Of a stretch of DNA of 64,000 bases, positions 49,528-57,587 are shown in pieces (position 1 is the stretch's first letter; each line of letters starts with the position of its first letter). The notes beneath the pieces are model-generated. The model worked only from the letters and a program-made list of their open reading frames with translations, searched no databases and was not told where the DNA came from. The DNA is from Neotamlana sedimentorum. Lineage in GTDB: Bacteria; Bacteroidota; Bacteroidia; Flavobacteriales; Flavobacteriaceae. The stretch spans positions 186,001-250,000 of the forward strand of contig NZ_JTDW01000001.1 in the NCBI RefSeq assembly GCF_000943565.1, given 5' to 3'. The position numbers and the translations under genes were made by a program.

Positions 49528-50910
49528 CTACTGTTTAATAAGTTTTTTTGTAGATAACAACGCATTATCAGAATAAAAATTGGCTAAATAAACTCCGGCG
49601 TTTAATTTGCTAATATTTACACTTTCGGTTTCGAAATTTTTAAGCGATAACGTTTTAATTCGCTTACCGTCTAAACTTATAATTTCAATTTTTAGGTTAG
49701 AATTATTTCCGTTTTCAAATGAAAAATTAATGGTGTTTTTAGTAGGGTTTGGATACATTTTAATACTCAAATTGTTTTCGCTACTAATAGTTTCAATACC
49801 TAAAGTAGAGTAATTAATACTCCAAGTTACGGTGTGTATATTTATGGTTTCGTAATCGTCAATTCTAATAAGGCTTGTGTTGTCTGTAATGGCAGTTATA
49901 AGTGTGTTTTCGCCTTCAACTAAATCGGTTTCGTTAATAGAAACTTCATCTAAATTATTAGCAAAAACGTTGCTGTTTAATGTCCAATTGCTTTCTAAGG
50001 TGTTAGGGTTTGGTTTAATTAAACTAAGCGAGAAATCAATTGGGAAGTTTAACGCTTCTATGTTACTTGCACTCGGTAAATAACTATCAATTGGAGAAAT
50101 TAACTCGTGAATTCTTGCCACCATTCCTTCTTTACAAACCGAACAAAATCCTTTGTCTATTTTCTCCATAATGCAGTTTTGGTGTGGTTTATACCAGTCT
50201 GCACAATTTCCCGTGTCGCAAGTATATTGGTAAATGCCAACGCTATTTGTGTTAAGCCAGTTTTTCCATTTAACACTGTTCGTGTTGGTTTCTTTTGTCA
50301 TGTTAATAGCTTCTGACGCTAATTCATCTCCAGGATAATATTCATCTTTTAAATCGAAAAGCGAATGCCCGATTTCGTGCATAATTACATTATTACCCCA
50401 ATAGCCATTATAAGCCATAGGGAAACTACCACCGCTACCACCATAATCGGGAGAATTTACCAAAATAAGTCCAACGTCATAATTAGGTGTATTATCAGCT
50501 AAAACGCTAAGTATTTTTGCTTCGGTGTTATTGGTGCTATACCCATCGACTTCGTAATAAAGTAAATATGGTTTACCAAAGGCTTCATGGGTAGCGTTAA
50601 AATAAGTGTCTACGTAAGTGTTTGTAGAAGGCCTGTCGGCACCACTTTCGTTCGATGGTACTTTTACAGCGTAAACATTAAAATAATTAGTGTAATTAGA
50701 AAAAGGAGCTTCTGCAAACATGGTTGAAGTGAATTTTTCCGCATCAGAAATAAAATCCGCCAACTCACTTTCTTGATAACCTTCACTTAAAATAACTAGG
50801 TTAATACGATTATTGTCATCACCAGAATATTTAATAGTTTCTACATCAAAAACCTGAGCGTTTAAAAAGCTTGATAACATCAATATGATAAAAAAATTAA
50901 CCTTTTTCAT
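49528..50910 (-). CDS. M64-family metallopeptidase with type IX sorting tail
   Basis: A 460-residue secreted zinc peptidase. The signal peptide is MKKVNFFIILMLSSFLNAQ. The M64 (IgA-peptidase-like) domain has SEGYQESELADFISDAEKF and the zinc site His178-Glu-x-x-His182 in MHEIGHSLFDLKDEYYPG. Cysteine-rich QYTCDTGNCADWYKPH follows. The last 75 residues are a type A C-terminal sorting domain: IKMYPNPTKNTINFSF, then KIEIISLDGKRIKTL and LNAGVYLANFYSD ending in KKLIKQ. It should be exported by the type IX system and processed by PorU. The companion lipoprotein gene lies 2 bases upstream. Confidence 0.93.
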   Translation of the reverse strand: MKKVNFFIILMLSSFLNAQVFDVETIKYSGDDNNRINLVILSEGYQESELADFISDAEKFTSTMFAEAPFSNYTNYFNVYAVKVPSNESGADRPSTNTYVDTYFNATHEAFGKPYLLYYEVDGYSTNNTEAKILSVLADNTPNYDVGLILVNSPDYGGSGGSFPMAYNGYWGNNVIMHEIGHSLFDLKDEYYPGDELASEAINMTKETNTNSVKWKNWLNTNSVGIYQYTCDTGNCADWYKPHQNCIMEKIDKGFCSVCKEGMVARIHELISPIDSYLPSASNIEALNFPIDFSLSLIKPNPNTLESNWTLNSNVFANNLDEVSINETDLVEGENTLITAITDNTSLIRIDDYETINIHTVTWSINYSTLGIETISSENNLSIKMYPNPTKNTINFSFENGNNSNLKIEIISLDGKRIKTLSLKNFETESVNISKLNAGVYLANFYSDNALLSTKKLIKQ

Positions 50911-50912
50911 TT

Positions 50913-51410
50913 TTAATCCAGTTTTGTGGTTATAAGCTCTGTTGTGCTTTTTTTGTTATCGGTTATTACAAGTAACCTTAAATAATGCGCTTCGGGATGT
51001 AATTGTAATTTAAGTGAAATTGGAGCTTTTTTTAAGATGTGTTTTTGTCTTGAAAATTCAAGCGATTCGTTAGTCGTTTCGGTAAACTTAATTAACGGAT
51101 TTCTTATATAATCAACGTGAATTGTTTTGTAATTTTTATCTAATTGTACACATTTAATATCATCAACATTGGGTTGGCTAATAAATTTATGACTTTGGGT
51201 TTTTACCAGACCGTCTGTGATTTTTTTATTTATTAGTTGTATTTTTTTTGTGTTTTCTTCTTGTGCTTCTAAAGTGTAATTAATAAATAATAGTTTAGGG
51301 TTTTTGGTAATAGGAATGCTGTTATCGCTAATTTGTTTTTGCCCACCACAAGCTAGAAGGCATAACATACCAAGCAGGAAAATTAATTTAAAAAAGAATA
51401 ACCGTTTCAT
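50913..51410 (-). CDS. Lipoprotein paired with the M64 peptidase, unknown function
   Basis: A 165-residue protein I do not recognise. The N-terminus KLIFLLGMLCLLACGGQ is a lipoprotein signal with Cys at about residue 21. The rest is polar and probably beta-rich (SLKLQLHPEAHYLRLLVITD). The stop is 2 bases before the M64 peptidase start, so the two are co-translated. That arrangement suggests a helper, an inhibitor or a surface partner for the peptidase, but nothing in the sequence says which. Confidence 0.65.
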   Translation of the reverse strand: MKRLFFFKLIFLLGMLCLLACGGQKQISDNSIPITKNPKLLFINYTLEAQEENTKKIQLINKKITDGLVKTQSHKFISQPNVDDIKCVQLDKNYKTIHVDYIRNPLIKFTETTNESLEFSRQKHILKKAPISLKLQLHPEAHYLRLLVITDNKKSTTELITTKLD

Positions 51411-51455: not shown

Positions 51456-54400
51456 TTAGTTTATATGTAATCTTACGCCTTCGCTATGGCTACTAAATTC
51501 GGGTGCGTACATGCTTTGTATGGTGGTAATGCCATTACTCATATTACCAGCATTGTTAACACGTAAATCGTATTCGAAAACATAAATTCCTTTTGGTAAA
51601 TAGTCGAAAAAGAAGTTTGTGCTCGCATCTTTTGTGCTTTCATAATAGCCCAAACCGTCTTGCCATTTGTATTGACTAATTACATTTACGGGTTCTAAAC
51701 CTGCGGCACGCATGTCTTTCATGTGTATAAATTCCATAGCACGATCGCTGCGCAACTCAATACGAACGCGAACTAAATCGCCAACTTCAAGTTTGGTGTT
51801 TTCAGTAATTTCGGTGATTTCTTCTCCAAAATCTGTATTTGTTTTTTTGAAAAGCTTCTTTTTAAGACTTAATGGTGTTTCTGCCGATGAAATTTTATCT
51901 AAATCTTCAAAATATTGCCAATACAATCCGCCCCAAGCAATACCATCGCCTTTTTTAGTTAGTGTAACGTTGGCCATTTCGGGTTTAATTTCTGACGGAT
52001 TCCATGAGGTTTTAAAGTAACCCGTTCCGGCTTCAACTTTTACGTTCTCTAGCTTTTTAGGTTCAATTTTTTTATTAGCTACTAAAACATCAACAGCTTC
52101 AGTAACGCTTAACCAATCACTACCTTGAAGCAATAAAGCATAAACCGCTTCGGTAGTTGCTTTGGTAGTTTTCCAACGGTTGGTTTGCTTATTTTTAAGT
52201 AACCAAATTTTTAGATTGTCTATGGTTTTTAAATTCTTTTTCTGTGCTTCAATTTCGTTCCGCGAGACATAAAGCACTTCGCCTGCTTCAGAAAAGGCTT
52301 CAATTAAAAGTGCTTGTGTTTCAATGGGTGCTTGATACCAAAACCATGAGTTCGTGTTTGTTTTCCAGTACATGCCCAATTCTTCATTAGTAATACTCGT
52401 TTCTTTTAGCGATTTTAAAATTTTTGATGCTGTATTTTTATCATCTTTTCTATATGAAACGAGCGCCATTAATCCTTTTGCGTATAAACTTCTATTTATC
52501 CAATACTTTTGAATTTGAGTTTGGTAATAATCCATAATGTTTTCAACTTCCTTTGAAGGTTTAATTTCTGGGAAGAAGCTTCGCATGTATAAATATTGAA
52601 GCTGTGTATAGCTTAAATGATTTTTGCTTAAATCAACTTTAGCATTGTATTTTGTTAGGCCTTTATATTCTTTAACAAACTGCGCATCTAAATATTTGAT
52701 GGCTTTTTGAATCATTTTAGAGGTTTCATCATAATTATTTGTGACATTTAGTTTATTAAGATGCCCAAAACCAGAAATAATATGTTGGGTAATGTATCGG
52801 TTTTCGCGTCCGCCTTTAAACCAACTCCAAGCACCAGAACTCATTTGGTTAGATTTTAGTTTGTTGATTGCCGATTGTAATTCATTATTCATTTTGTTTA
52901 AATTGAATAATAAGGCGATGCGTTTTTTCTGTTCGGTTTCACTTTGTGCATCACGAAGCCAAGGCGTTTCTTGTATTAAAATAGATTTTAATTCTTCGTT
53001 TTTTTCAAGGTTAGAAACAAGAGCATCTGCATTGGCCCATTGGTTAAAAACCTCCTGAATTCGCGGATTAGAATTTGCAATGTGGCTTGCCAAAGCATTC
53101 GCATAATACCTGCTAAATGTTTGCTCGTTACATTCGTAAGGATATTCCATTAAATATGGTAAAGCTTGCACAGCGTACCATGCCGGATTTGAAGTGATTT
53201 CTAAAGTTAGCTTATGATGTTTTAATGTAGCAGACGAATTGGTCTTTAATTTATCGAGTGTAAAGGTTCGGGTTTCGTTACTTTTAATCCACATAGGAAG
53301 CGTTTCTGTAACTAACATACGATTACTTAAAACCGGTAGAGCGTTTTGTTCGCCATCGCTAAAGGTGTCGGATTTTGCGACAATTTTATATTGAACCGCA
53401 TCGATAGTGTCTGGAATACTAAGTTGCCATGACACTTGTGTGTTGGCTTGTGGGTTAACCACGAAGGTTTCGACTGCGCTCAACCTGACAAGTTCTTTTG
53501 TAACATCTTCTCCAGAAATAGCATCTGTAAGGACTAAAAATGCGTTTCCTGATAATTGGTTGTCTGTTAGGTTTGCAATTTTTGTACTAATAGTAATGCT
53601 ATCGCCATGGCGTAAAAAGCGTGGTGCGTTAGGTGTTACCATAAGTTCCTTTTGTGTAACTGTAGTAAGTGTTTTTGTTGCGCTTTCTAGGTTTTTGGTG
53701 TGTGCTAAAAGTTGCAATTTCCATTGGGTTAAAGCTTCAGGTGTGGTGAAACTAAAACTTACATTTCCAGCTTCGTCGGTTGTTAGCTGAGGAAAAAAGA
53801 AAGCGGTTTCTTGTAAATTTTTACGAATTTGTATGTTATCGAAATTTGGGGTTTCTGTGGCTGATTCTTCGGAAGTTTCTTCTATTATATCTTCATTAAG
53901 ACTGTCGGCTTCGGCTTCTGCAGGAGCGCTTGCAATTGCTCCAACTTTAGCGTTTCTTTTTTGTGTACCGTAACCAACCACAACTACTTCATCTAAAATG
54001 GCTTCGTCTTCAACAACCTGGACACCAGCTACACGACCACTAAGCGCGCTCGAAACATTACTCATGCCTCTTATCATTAAATTTCCATTACCAAACCTAA
54101 ATCCAAACCAATTCAATTCATCGTAATATTGCTGAGGGTAAGTTGTTCGCGGGTTGTAATTATAAACTTGAAAATTAGTGTTGCCAAAACTGCTGTAAGC
54201 TTTATTGCTAGTACCAATGTAATATGTTGGGTTATTCACAGGATTGAAATACCAATTATGAGGTTTAAACTGGTCGAGTGAAGCATCATACATGTTTGCT
54301 AAAAATTCGGCGCTTACTTTTTCGCTTTTAGGGCCTTTTATGTTAAAACTCCAAGTTTCGTTGGTTCCTGGTTGTAATTTATCGCGAAACGTATTGGTTT

Positions 54401-57400
54401 CAATGTTTAAATCGGTTTTAGGATAGGGCACAGCAATATAAGTTGTACCAGATTTATAACTGTTATAGGCGGCAAAACTATAATGCACTACAAAACCGCC
54501 AATGTCGTTAGTTTCAACGGGAACTGAAATGCTTTTTTTATTATTGTTAAGCTGAATTATTTCGGTTTTTATAATTTTTTTGTCTTTTTCAATACGAATA
54601 GTAACCGATACATCTTTGGAAGCAGAAGCTACAGTAACAACTGCAGTTTCACCAATATTATATTTTGATTTGTTGGTTGTGATACTAAACAATTGCTTAT
54701 CGGCTAAAGTTTTATCGGTTTCACTAAATAAGGTAGTTTTAACTTCGTCTTTAACTAATTGTCCGAATTTGTCTTTACTTTCTAAAGTGATGAGGTATTG
54801 GCCAGATTCCCATTTTTTAAGTTTTCCTAAATCTATTTGTTTAGCGTTTTCGGTTTTAAAATCGCTACTAAAAACAAGTGTGCCTTTTTCCCAATTAGCC
54901 GAATTGTCTTCATTTTTATAAGCTTCATTAGGGAATAAGTTTTTGTATGCTTCTTTCGAGAATTCTTGATAATCTGGCGTTGCCCAAGGGCGAGGTCTTA
55001 CAACGGTTTCCGGAGCTTTAAGTTTATAAATTTTAATATCACCTTGAGCCGGAACAAATTCGCCATTTAAGTTTTTTGTATCAATAGAAATACTTTGGTT
55101 TTTCTTGTTTTTATCAATTAAAGCATCTACGGTTAATTGGGCAGTTAAGGCATGATAACCTACGTTAACAATGGTTGTTGCACTTCTGGTTTCTCCGTTT
55201 AAATCGGTTACATCGGCAGTGATTTCGTAGTTAAAAATGGGTAAGCTGTTTTTATCTACACTTTGGTCTGGAAGCGCTTTAAAAGTAATTTCGAAGTTTC
55301 CGGAAGCATCGGTTGCGGTTTCGCCATGTGTAATTTCTTGAGCTTCGCTGCTAAAATATGGTCTGTACCAAAAATACCAACGCGGATATTGTACTTTTCG
55401 TTGTACACGGTAAACCACTTTAGCATCGGTAATATTGCTGCCGGCATAAGCTAGCGCATTTCCTGTTACGGTAACCGAATCGTTAATTTTATAAGTGTCT
55501 GTAACGGGTATAAATTCGGTTTTAAATTTAGGACGTTTGTATTCTTCTACAGAAAAATAGTGATCTGTATAAAAGTCTTTATTGTCGCCGTCAAATTCTA
55601 TGTAATATTCGCCATTTAAACCGTTGTTTGGTAAAATGAATTCACCGGAAACCGAGCCAAATTCGTTGGTTTTAAATTCTAATTTGCTAACTTCTTCGTT
55701 GTTTACATTATAAAGTGTAACATAAACAGGTTCGTTATCAACAACTTCAGATTTATTGTTTTTAGTTTTTATGGCAATGGCTTTAAAAAACACGGTTTGC
55801 CCAGGACGATAAATGCTTCTATCGGTGAAAATGAAAGCTTTGTATTGTGTTTTTTCTCGAGGTTCTTGGTATTTAGTATAGACATTATAATTGCCAAAAT
55901 AAGCCGTTTCGTTAGCGTTGCTTACTTTTAAAGTTATGTTTCTGTACCAATCGTTGGTTTTTTCAATACGTATTTCTCCGTAGTTGTTTGTGGTGTATTC
56001 TTCACGATTAATGGCGCGTGAATTTCTTTCAGAATAACTCATTTCAACTTTGGCGTTACTAACAGGAGCGCCATTAGTTCTGTTAATTACTTGAAATATT
56101 TTTTGTGTAATCGCTTCGGTTTCAACCAAAGCCAAATTGGTGACTTGTACTGTTGTGTAAGCAAAATTTTCTGGGTTGTTTTTTATTTCGGCATAAATTA
56201 AATAATCGCCGCCAACCAATTTCGGAATTAAAATTTCGGTGCTATGTTGTTGGTAATCGTTTTCATTTTTTAAAACACTTTCCCAAGATTGGTTCTCGTT
56301 TAAGGTTTTTATAAAATCTAGTTTTTCTTCTTTACGGTAAAGCTCTTCAAATTTCTCAAGCTCTTTTCTTTTTAGTTTAAATAGTTTAAAATTTAAAACG
56401 TCAATATTTTTATAATCAACCAAAACTTTGGCGTGCTTTTGTGTTGGTAAAAAGCGTTCTGCAGTTATTTTTAAAGAAGTAGCTTCAATGGTTTGTTTTA
56501 AAACTTGGCATTTTTCGGCGGCATGACTTTTTGGATAATTTGCAATGACATTATTACAAATTTCTAGAGCTTCTTTTGCTTTCCAACGATAGTCTTCTTG
56601 GGTTTTTGCATTGTGTTTTTTACTTTGATGCTGGTAAATATTAGCAATTTCATAATCGTATAAACCGGAAACCTCATGGTTTTTAACTTTGCTTTTTTCT
56701 GTTTTAAGGGCTTTTAAAAGGATTGTTTCTTTATTGCTAATTGGGGCGTGTTGGTTTACAAATTTTAAGCGCTCAATATCGGCATCTGCCTTAGCGTAAA
56801 TGGCATTGTCTTTTAAATGAAATTGAATTAAATCTTGATAAATTTTTAAAGCATTTAATTGTAACGAAGTCGAATCTTTTGAAGTTATTTTTAGTTCCGA
56901 AAAGGTTTTGGCATCGGCTAAAAAATCTGGATTATCAATTTCGAATTTGTAAGAAGGTCGGGTAATATGCGTTTCATTCGTTTTATAAAATTCTAGAGCT
57001 TCATGGTTTAAAAAATCGAATAGGGTAGGACGGTATTTTTTAGAGTCCTTTTGAAGAATTAAAATATCATTGAACTGACTTAAATCTTCTTGTTGAAGCA
57101 TTAACCCGCTCGCTAAGGCATTTTGGTAATGCACATGTATTTCATGAAAAAGTGTTTGTAAATCCCAAGTTCTAAAATCGGTTTTATCTACCTTTTCGCT
57201 TGTTTTTGTGCGGTTGTAAAATTGCCAACGGTTTTGCTGAAAATATTGCCAATACATTTTGGCAAGCATGCTCTCTAAAACATTTTTAGTAGGGAACTTG
57301 CTAGCTTCAATTTGGGATTTAAAATCGTTAATTATGTTAAGTTGCGCATCTTCTTCTAAAATAAGAGCAAACTTGCCTTTAAAAAGCATGGTTTTAATAA

Positions 57401-57587
57401 GTTGCGGCGTGTTATTATCTTGTTTTGCTTTTTCGGCAATGTCGTTCACTACTTTTAATGCCGATTTTGGTAAACCTTCGGCTTCAAATGTTTCAACCTT
57501 TTGCCATAAGTTGGTGTAGTCTGGATTTTGTGCAGTGGTGAAGTTTGCAAAAAGTATAATCATTAAAATAGTAAATGTCTGTTTCAT
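51456..57587 (-). CDS. Alpha-2-macroglobulin-family protein with SusC/RagA plug-like insert
   Basis: A 2043-residue exported protein with signal peptide MKQTFTILMIILFANFTTAQ. A helical N-terminal region (to about 380) precedes MG/MG2 domains (for example FIFTDRSIYRPGQTVFFKAI). Residues about 1171-1211 contain MIRG, ALSGRVAGVQV and DEVVVVGYGTQKR, marks of SusC/RagA TonB-dependent receptors. An acidic linker leads to the A2M domain (FFFPQLTTDEAGNVSFSFTT). The thioester motif Cys1486-Asn-Glu-Gln1489 lies in YPYECNEQTFSRYYA, then a helical thioester domain. Such proteins trap proteases; the bait region normally lies where the SusC-like segment is. Bases 53468-53494 are a dispersed repeat read in frame. 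Confidence 0.88.
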   Translation of the reverse strand: MKQTFTILMIILFANFTTAQNPDYTNLWQKVETFEAEGLPKSALKVVNDIAEKAKQDNNTPQLIKTMLFKGKFALILEEDAQLNIINDFKSQIEASKFPTKNVLESMLAKMYWQYFQQNRWQFYNRTKTSEKVDKTDFRTWDLQTLFHEIHVHYQNALASGLMLQQEDLSQFNDILILQKDSKKYRPTLFDFLNHEALEFYKTNETHITRPSYKFEIDNPDFLADAKTFSELKITSKDSTSLQLNALKIYQDLIQFHLKDNAIYAKADADIERLKFVNQHAPISNKETILLKALKTEKSKVKNHEVSGLYDYEIANIYQHQSKKHNAKTQEDYRWKAKEALEICNNVIANYPKSHAAEKCQVLKQTIEATSLKITAERFLPTQKHAKVLVDYKNIDVLNFKLFKLKRKELEKFEELYRKEEKLDFIKTLNENQSWESVLKNENDYQQHSTEILIPKLVGGDYLIYAEIKNNPENFAYTTVQVTNLALVETEAITQKIFQVINRTNGAPVSNAKVEMSYSERNSRAINREEYTTNNYGEIRIEKTNDWYRNITLKVSNANETAYFGNYNVYTKYQEPREKTQYKAFIFTDRSIYRPGQTVFFKAIAIKTKNNKSEVVDNEPVYVTLYNVNNEEVSKLEFKTNEFGSVSGEFILPNNGLNGEYYIEFDGDNKDFYTDHYFSVEEYKRPKFKTEFIPVTDTYKINDSVTVTGNALAYAGSNITDAKVVYRVQRKVQYPRWYFWYRPYFSSEAQEITHGETATDASGNFEITFKALPDQSVDKNSLPIFNYEITADVTDLNGETRSATTIVNVGYHALTAQLTVDALIDKNKKNQSISIDTKNLNGEFVPAQGDIKIYKLKAPETVVRPRPWATPDYQEFSKEAYKNLFPNEAYKNEDNSANWEKGTLVFSSDFKTENAKQIDLGKLKKWESGQYLITLESKDKFGQLVKDEVKTTLFSETDKTLADKQLFSITTNKSKYNIGETAVVTVASASKDVSVTIRIEKDKKIIKTEIIQLNNNKKSISVPVETNDIGGFVVHYSFAAYNSYKSGTTYIAVPYPKTDLNIETNTFRDKLQPGTNETWSFNIKGPKSEKVSAEFLANMYDASLDQFKPHNWYFNPVNNPTYYIGTSNKAYSSFGNTNFQVYNYNPRTTYPQQYYDELNWFGFRFGNGNLMIRGMSNVSSALSGRVAGVQVVEDEAILDEVVVVGYGTQKRNAKVGAIASAPAEAEADSLNEDIIEETSEESATETPNFDNIQIRKNLQETAFFFPQLTTDEAGNVSFSFTTPEALTQWKLQLLAHTKNLESATKTLTTVTQKELMVTPNAPRFLRHGDSITISTKIANLTDNQLSGNAFLVLTDAISGEDVTKELVRLSAVETFVVNPQANTQVSWQLSIPDTIDAVQYKIVAKSDTFSDGEQNALPVLSNRMLVTETLPMWIKSNETRTFTLDKLKTNSSATLKHHKLTLEITSNPAWYAVQALPYLMEYPYECNEQTFSRYYANALASHIANSNPRIQEVFNQWANADALVSNLEKNEELKSILIQETPWLRDAQSETEQKKRIALLFNLNKMNNELQSAINKLKSNQMSSGAWSWFKGGRENRYITQHIISGFGHLNKLNVTNNYDETSKMIQKAIKYLDAQFVKEYKGLTKYNAKVDLSKNHLSYTQLQYLYMRSFFPEIKPSKEVENIMDYYQTQIQKYWINRSLYAKGLMALVSYRKDDKNTASKILKSLKETSITNEELGMYWKTNTNSWFWYQAPIETQALLIEAFSEAGEVLYVSRNEIEAQKKNLKTIDNLKIWLLKNKQTNRWKTTKATTEAVYALLLQGSDWLSVTEAVDVLVANKKIEPKKLENVKVEAGTGYFKTSWNPSEIKPEMANVTLTKKGDGIAWGGLYWQYFEDLDKISSAETPLSLKKKLFKKTNTDFGEEITEITENTKLEVGDLVRVRIELRSDRAMEFIHMKDMRAAGLEPVNVISQYKWQDGLGYYESTKDASTNFFFDYLPKGIYVFEYDLRVNNAGNMSNGITTIQSMYAPEFSSHSEGVRLHIN
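53468..53494. repeat. Dispersed repeat copy inside the macroglobulin coding sequence
   Basis: On the minus strand this 27-base stretch contains GTCAGGTTGAGCGCAGTCGA and is read in frame as LVRLSAVET (residues about 1365-1373). Its 25-base core differs at only three positions from the intergenic copy at 58968-58992. Frame and length of the protein are preserved. Confidence 0.7.

Follow-up and report, generated by a model that had tools for sequence, protein, structure and literature searches.

SusC-like sequence in the bait region of a flavobacterial alpha-2-macroglobulin and its relatives

Introduction

The alpha-2-macroglobulins (A2Ms) of Escherichia coli (ECAM/YfhM) and Salmonella (SaA2M) contain MG, BRD, A2M, and bMG10 domains and a CxEQ motif, with a disordered bait placed before the A2M domain. 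Human A2M works with a bait replaced by Gly-Ser sequence, and in this engineered (tabula rasa) form the inserted substrate sequences set the specificity (PMC8267569, in part). Once cut, the bait retracts from a channel (PMC9352918, in part). In SusC transporters, the TonB box faces the periplasm (PMC7618045, in part), and deletion or replacement of VDEVVV in the SusC Bt1763 impaired growth as a non-functional transporter would (PMC7782687, in part).

Here, we describe an A2M gene of Neotamlana sedimentorum, located in a 64,000-nucleotide stretch of contig NZ_JTDW01000001.1 (positions 186,001 to 250,000, hereafter the window). The protein shares with the E. coli and Salmonella A2Ms all the domains and the motif listed above, the disordered bait before the A2M domain, and the fold (Z about 20). 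It differs from them in its bait, which appears to be built from SusC N-terminal sequence and is very variable, and in the lipobox, which we did not see by eye. With the SusC/RagA transporters, the window bait shares the TonB box LDEVVVVGYGTQKR and the LxGRVAGVQV and IRG motifs, and the baits of some relatives share full NTE, box, and plug in the canonical order; unlike these transporters, the window protein is barrel-free, has a reversed motif order, and presents neither a plug match nor a plug fold. Bait exchange as a cassette also recalls the engineered human A2M, where the swap is made by design (PMC8267569, in part), whereas here it would be a natural capture from a transporter gene. Both components, macroglobulin and SusC, are known; their combination is real and unusual, and none of the titles listed in our search of the open-access literature described a SusC-derived macroglobulin bait. 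Public databases may well annotate Plug or CarboxypepD_reg in such proteins, next to their macroglobulin domains.

Results and Discussion

A thioester-type macroglobulin and its neighborhood

The MG2, A2M_BRD, A2M, and bMG10 domains of the 2043-residue protein (Table 1) each exceed the Pfam cut-off, and at E ≤ 0.001 the gene is the sole PF00207 match in its own genome. The AlphaFold2 model (residues 940–2043, 52 alignment rows) had a mean pLDDT of 69.4 and a pTM of 0.46, and its best matches were C3 (7zgj_B, Z 20.6, 645 aligned residues, rmsd 11.6), the macroglobulins of E. coli (5a42, Z 19.9, 759, rmsd 14.9) and Salmonella (4u48, Z 19.9, 683, rmsd 13.7), and human A2ML1 (7q5z, Z 19.5, 704, rmsd 13.3); since these rmsd values are large, the domain arrangement in the model is uncertain. 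The CxEQ motif falls in a helical region of the model, which matched TED structures. Judging from domains and predicted fold, the gene is a bacterial thioester-type alpha-2-macroglobulin, which would be cleaved and trap its target covalently. The N-terminus, read by eye, resembles a signal peptide and has no lipobox Cys; the protein thus most likely sits in the periplasm.

Table 1. Features of the macroglobulin locus (positions refer to the window)
Feature	Position	Strand	Basis
M64 peptidase with type IX secretion tail, downstream of A2M	49528-50910	-	
165-aa protein without Pfam match, directly downstream of A2M	50913-51410	-	
Alpha-2-macroglobulin ORF, 2043 aa, with thioester motif CNEQ	51456..57587	-	Pfam domains and fold match
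Thioester motif CNEQ, residues 1486-1489	53121..53132	-	Single occurrence in protein
A2M domain (PF00207), residues 1261-1346	53550..53807	-	Pfam
IRKNLQETAFFF, conserved segment right after bait (alpha'NT position)	53793..53828	-	
Hypervariable disordered bait, ~residues 1164-1253	53829..54098	-	Low model pLDDT; homologues vary in length and content
DEVVVVGYGTQKR, residues 1199-1211, SusC TonB-box sequence	53955..53993	-	SusC HMM E=1e-8
ALSGRVAGVQV, residues 1181-1191, resembles SusC LQGRVAGVQV motif	54015..54047	-	
MIRG, residues 1171-1174, resembles SusC plug IRIRG motif	54066..54077	-	Motif position and order comparison
A2M_BRD domain (PF07703), residues 968-1079	54351..54686	-	Pfam

Among the 80 homologous loci, short contigs included, mpl was found near the A2M gene in 62, so that many share the gene order of the window. 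A homologue of the M64 peptidase was close to the A2M gene in 25/80, a lower bound given that some M64-negative loci lie on short contigs, and the 165-aa protein in 23/80. The TonB box was present in 19 of the 26 loci with the M64 gene and in 30 of the 55 without it, a comparison with too few independent pairs to support a link. As a further difference from the E. coli and Salmonella A2Ms, a regular expression for the GT51-like (PBP1C) motif found nothing in the neighboring ORFs listed; it matched once, within the A2M ORF at locus L059.

SusC-like motifs at the bait position

The initial annotation had reported MIRG, ALSGRVAGVQV, and DEVVVVGYGTQKR, hallmarks of SusC/RagA receptors, between the MG domains and the thioester part of the protein. 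All three were found exactly where it had placed them, each in one copy, as is CNEQ. The SusC-like segment occupies the position of the bait, since it lies between the BRD and A2M domains, is predicted to be disordered, and is directly followed by IRKNLQETAFFF. Indeed, pLDDT is below 50 at residues 1135–1246 (model residues 196–307), secondary structure is almost absent there, and the value falls to ~26 at the TonB box. In IRKNLQETAFFF, the residues R, N, E, F, and F are invariant across the 52 rows, and the segment aligns, below threshold, with human VRKYFPETW.

The strongest element is the box, LDEVVVVGYG, which equals that of Bt1763 (81-VDEVVV-86 / DEVVVTG; PMC7782687, in part). The NCBIfam SusC/RagA profile TIGR04056 matched a 200-aa fragment of the protein through its positions 73–102 (E = 1.5e−5, 23.6 bits, the full-length cut-off being 368.25), and this match and our own SusC profile both identify the segment as containing a TonB box. 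Searched with the whole window protein, TIGR04056 gave nothing at E up to 1. ALSGRVAGVQV taken alone lends weak support (SusC HMM domain E = 0.01 and 0.016). In the SusCs of the same genome, the motifs follow the order LDEVVVVGYGTQKK, ALQGRVAGV, IRIRG, VIDG; in the window, the order IRG, LSGRVAG, box is the reverse of this, and VIDG is absent. The same order recurs in 10/81 baits by regular expression, and other orders exist too. Downstream of the segment come the A2M domain, the helical thioester region, and bMG10, with no C-terminal beta barrel, and at E up to 1 the protein matched no receptor barrel family. Profiles and order comparison thus bear out the earlier description of a reordered, barrel-free SusC-like segment, and the Pfam layout and disordered model its placement at the bait.

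A plug-like domain had also been envisaged for the segment. At E up to 1, Pfam Plug (PF07715) gave no match in the protein, and this result, together with the pLDDT of ~26 at the box, rules out a folded plug in the window. The prediction therefore agrees with a disordered loop outside any MG core, and not with a plug.

Chance does not account for the resemblance

Short hydrophobic motifs could resemble SusC by chance or through an annotation artefact, and the curated match of the window is short (the TIGR04056 hit on a fragment). The bait regular expressions were written after the baits had been seen, and for this reason we placed the weight on profiles. We built a SusC HMM of 244 positions, from NTE to plug, on 18 SusCs of the same genome (out of 30 TBDT loci, those kept by regular expression), and searched 81 Flavobacteriaceae A2M baits, i.e., the window and 80 homologues, cut as stretches of 95 to 222 aa (E < 0.01, Z = 100). 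The profile matched 52/81 baits, compared with 2/81 reversed baits, 2/810 shuffled baits, and 0/162 N- and C-terminal rest pieces of the A2Ms; at E < 0.001, 1/81 reversed and 1/810 shuffled sequences remained. A shorter box-plug HMM matched 38/81 baits, 0/81 reversed, 2/810 shuffled, and 0/162 rest pieces at E < 0.01, and 6/81 reversed baits at E < 1. The 81 baits are related to each other and do not represent 81 independent trials.

These controls rule out a chance motif. Coherently, complete NTE-box-plug modules occur in the baits of relatives, the bait of L028 matches a SusC of its own genome at the DNA level, and the resemblance is found in independent genomes, among them that of L047, a complete chromosome. 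We therefore regard coincidence or artefact as scarcely credible, and derivation of the bait from the N-terminus of SusC as very probable.

Potential donors are numerous in the genome, which holds 60 Plug matches. The VVVVGYGT-type DNA pattern has five matches there, namely the window A2M and four adjoining Plug matches.

The same genome encodes another protein with plug-core sequences and no barrel, L267:284-1966 (C43), which we take to be an M56/BlaR1-like membrane protein. It carries two such stretches at its C-terminal end (IIDG...VIKD; VDG...VLKD...YG..GKNGVIII) and, unlike the window bait, no TonB box was seen in it. The M56-type plug was rejected as the source of the baits, since all 14 baits compared scored higher to SusC (62–164 vs 34–57 bits), a gap that partly derives from longer SusC matches.

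SusC-like baits across the phylum

Of 218 genomes sampled across the phylum, 94 had a PF00207 match. From the 126 matches, 110 were fetched (the 16 left out include the window gene), and 109 of these had the anchor, one being dropped. The SusC profile matched 24/109 phylum baits at E < 0.01. In 18 of the 24 the match covered box and/or plug, three of them weakly (L131, L142, and L166, E 0.0014–0.0052); in the other six (L123, L140, L148–L150, and L205) it was confined to an NTE-like domain of a kind common elsewhere. When the baits were roughly sorted by a sequence signature, 23 of 47 matched the profile, compared with 1 of 62 in a second A2M subfamily. That one, L173, had been mis-sorted owing to a coincidental fit of its plug to the signature, and after correction the counts were 24/48 and 0/61; the contrast is indicative, given that weak alignments (many < 10 bits) served to locate the second subfamily's baits.

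Homologues thus do carry such inserts, as the initial annotation had proposed to verify. In four of them (L159, L162, L172, and L173), the bait contains whole modules of NTE, box, and plug, arranged as in SusC. Among eight bait segments chosen for their strong profile match, all had Pfam Plug and/or CarbopepD_reg_2 above cut-off; curated Plug matches, missing from the window protein, and NTE matches are hence found in the baits of some relatives. For L028, the model (mean pLDDT 56.9) predicts a folded plug core (residues 291–340, pLDDT 79–86) set in low-confidence linker. Foldseek with this model returned macroglobulins and complement; none of the best 50 matches listed was a SusC chain, and the profile of A1 had no match against PDB sequences. 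The general interpretation given at first is therefore supported in part: the SusC-like bait stands, and a foldable plug core is missing in the window and predicted in only some relatives.

Two macroglobulins of ~1500 aa (L218 and L226), below the length of the main family, carry box and plug ahead of the A2M domain. Moreover, another cassette that recurs among the baits, with no clear SusC motifs, was recognized by eye (~ELESVVVTD...K.LVYK..T.SGG.I.AEI); it is complete in the L016 and L019 baits and partial in L031 and L083.

Origin and turnover of the bait content

The clearest donor relationship was found for L028. The same contig encodes, at a distance of 68 kb, a 1040-aa SusC that shares 74% identity with the plug of this bait (73% at the DNA level, over 227 aligned columns), while the next best SusC in the 13 genomes searched reached 57% and, among other macroglobulin baits, the highest value was 48%; the genome of L028 is metagenome-assembled, and a nearer relative could hold a closer SusC. 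Being closer to the SusC of its own genome than to other baits, the plug derives from that SusC lineage and not from other baits. At these identities, it is a match to a SusC lineage and not a fresh copy. For other baits, the pattern varied. The best fetched SusC was one of the same genome for L173 (160 bits vs 147) and, by a hair, for L172 (138 vs 137); the L025 bait was 57% identical to a SusC of another genome and 51% to its own, and the nearest sequence to the L057 bait was another Tenacibaculum bait, followed by a SusC of its own genome.

SusCs among those closest to the baits lie ~15–70 kb from the A2M gene in G118, G219, G220, G021, G068, G222, and G000:C1. Several of these fall in one SusC clade. 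The proximity could reflect conserved gene order or local donor use.

Bait content changes quickly in several pairs of related A2Ms. The sister genes L019 and L020 are 93.7% identical outside the bait and 18% in the bait core (82 vs 146 aa); their DNA identity collapses, within the gene, only at the bait, which indicates that it was replaced en bloc. Similarly, bait core identity is 0.27–0.38 in L017/L039, L016/L072, L035/L039, and L016/L035, with 0.86–0.88 outside. Faster bait change is not universal in close pairs: the window and L006 share 0.96 of the bait core and 0.948 outside it, and L010/L080 share 0.90 of the core.

In a tree of 12 baits and 56 SusCs (from which four baits without complete NTE and two duplicate SusCs were omitted), the bait label changes seven times, at least five of which are forced by starred branches. 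The AU test did not reject a single bait clade (12 NTE-bearing baits; p = 0.168, and 0.197 without the longest branch), so that repeated capture rests mainly on L028, on the L019/L020 replacement, and on the tree shape. On the A2M tree, the NTE state changes four times, the plug state five times, and the box state 21 times (shuffled mean 25.4, with 24/500 shuffles as low). Overall, this suggests that related bacteria swapped SusC-derived pieces in and out of the bait many times.

Such turnover is what would be expected if a tolerant bait, in genomes with numerous SusC-like genes, received pieces by recombination with no selection on their content. The many Plug matches of the genome, the frequent placement of the closest SusCs within tens of kb, the variable parts kept, and the function of human A2M with a Gly-Ser bait (PMC8267569, in part) are in line with this neutral capture. 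The second A2M subfamily of the phylum, with 0/61 matches in its weakly located baits, speaks against it, as does the retention of the box described below. Neutral capture accounts for the turnover and not easily for the box peak, and we consider it a possible but rather doubtful reading.

Preferential retention of the TonB box

The part of SusC retained differs by lineage, and detection of the box is roughly tenfold more frequent than that of the NTE or the plug core: 49/81 baits, compared with 4/81 for the NTE and 5/81 for the plug core. Profile coverage (domain E < 0.05) reached 42–49/81 baits over the box (positions 95–115), 4/81 over NTE positions 20–70, and 5/81 over plug core positions 165–230. 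When uniform decay of whole SusC modules was simulated with 70% of residues replaced, the box was detected in 63, the NTE in 34–60, and the plug in 16–49 of 90. This profile is much flatter than the observed one, hence the peak at the box goes beyond what detectability by itself would produce. Partial capture or recombination favoring box DNA could be its source, and either could bring neutral capture into agreement with the peak. The box, 14 residues long, has the same sequence in the window, L006, and L007, with synonymous differences in four of its codons; the L007 bait core is 68–70% identical to those of the window and L006, compared with 93–94% outside.

A box kept in this way might be in use. 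The initial annotation had considered that the segment could engage TonB or a SusC-like partner, and an exposed box in the bait could bind the C-terminal domain of TonB, so that the trap is tethered at TonB-ExbBD or the bait is pulled. The box is the best-kept element, its residues are constant over synonymous codon changes, the predicted disorder of the bait would make it accessible, and the loss of VDEVVV in Bt1763 mimics a non-functional transporter (PMC7782687, in part). On the other side, 32/81 orthologues have no detectable box, which is therefore not needed for A2M function in general; turnover is frequent, and 4/5 plug-bearing baits have no box by profile. TonB docking covers box retention better than a decoy role does and leaves the frequent absence of the box unexplained; we judge it unlikely. 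The further step, in which TonB-ExbBD holds or pulls the macroglobulin and box cleavage or TonB force controls its closing, seems decidedly unlikely. If true, this would be a TonB client other than an outer-membrane transporter.

A bait that may act as a decoy

Among the ideas initially advanced, that of a domesticated fragment used as bait fits the data best. We propose a macroglobulin trap, most likely periplasmic, whose disordered and fast-changing bait would be repeatedly refilled from the N-termini of SusC/RagA proteins (NTE, TonB box, and plug) and then decay; the window bait would be a reduced and reordered remnant with an intact TonB box. The bait would imitate the flexible, periplasm-facing N-terminus of SusC transporters, and a protease attacking that N-terminus would cut the bait instead. 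The chain after the bait would then retract, the trap would close, and the CNEQ thioester would bind the protease. In human A2M, substrate inserts decide which protease is trapped, and a SusC-type bait would accordingly trap proteases that cut the SusC N-terminus.

A decoy role explains the bait position, the disorder, the capture from SusC, and the fast turnover, and it needs a protease. We know of no protease that cuts the SusC box, and our search of the open-access literature named none. A further point against the proposal is that lengthening the human bait by 10–20 residues hinders native folding (PMC9352918, in part), when the stretches studied here, as cut, measure 95 to 222 aa. As the best overall explanation, we give a SusC-refilled bait acting as a decoy in a protease trap roughly even chances. 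Its decoy role, which we infer together with the periplasmic location and the trapping, we place slightly below that: the bait may be a mimic of the usual substrate of an attacking protease.

Implications

The locus is a protease trap fed by sequence of an unrelated gene family from the same genomes. If bait content reflects protease pressure, bait cassettes would be a record of the host protein under attack, in this case the N-terminus of SusC, TonB box included. Natural bait cassettes would then also make it testable, with peptides and swapped baits, what bacterial macroglobulins guard against. The term integrated decoy comes from plant immunity; if our proposal is true, these macroglobulins would be a bacterial integrated decoy, i.e., a defence protein bearing a copy of the attacked target.
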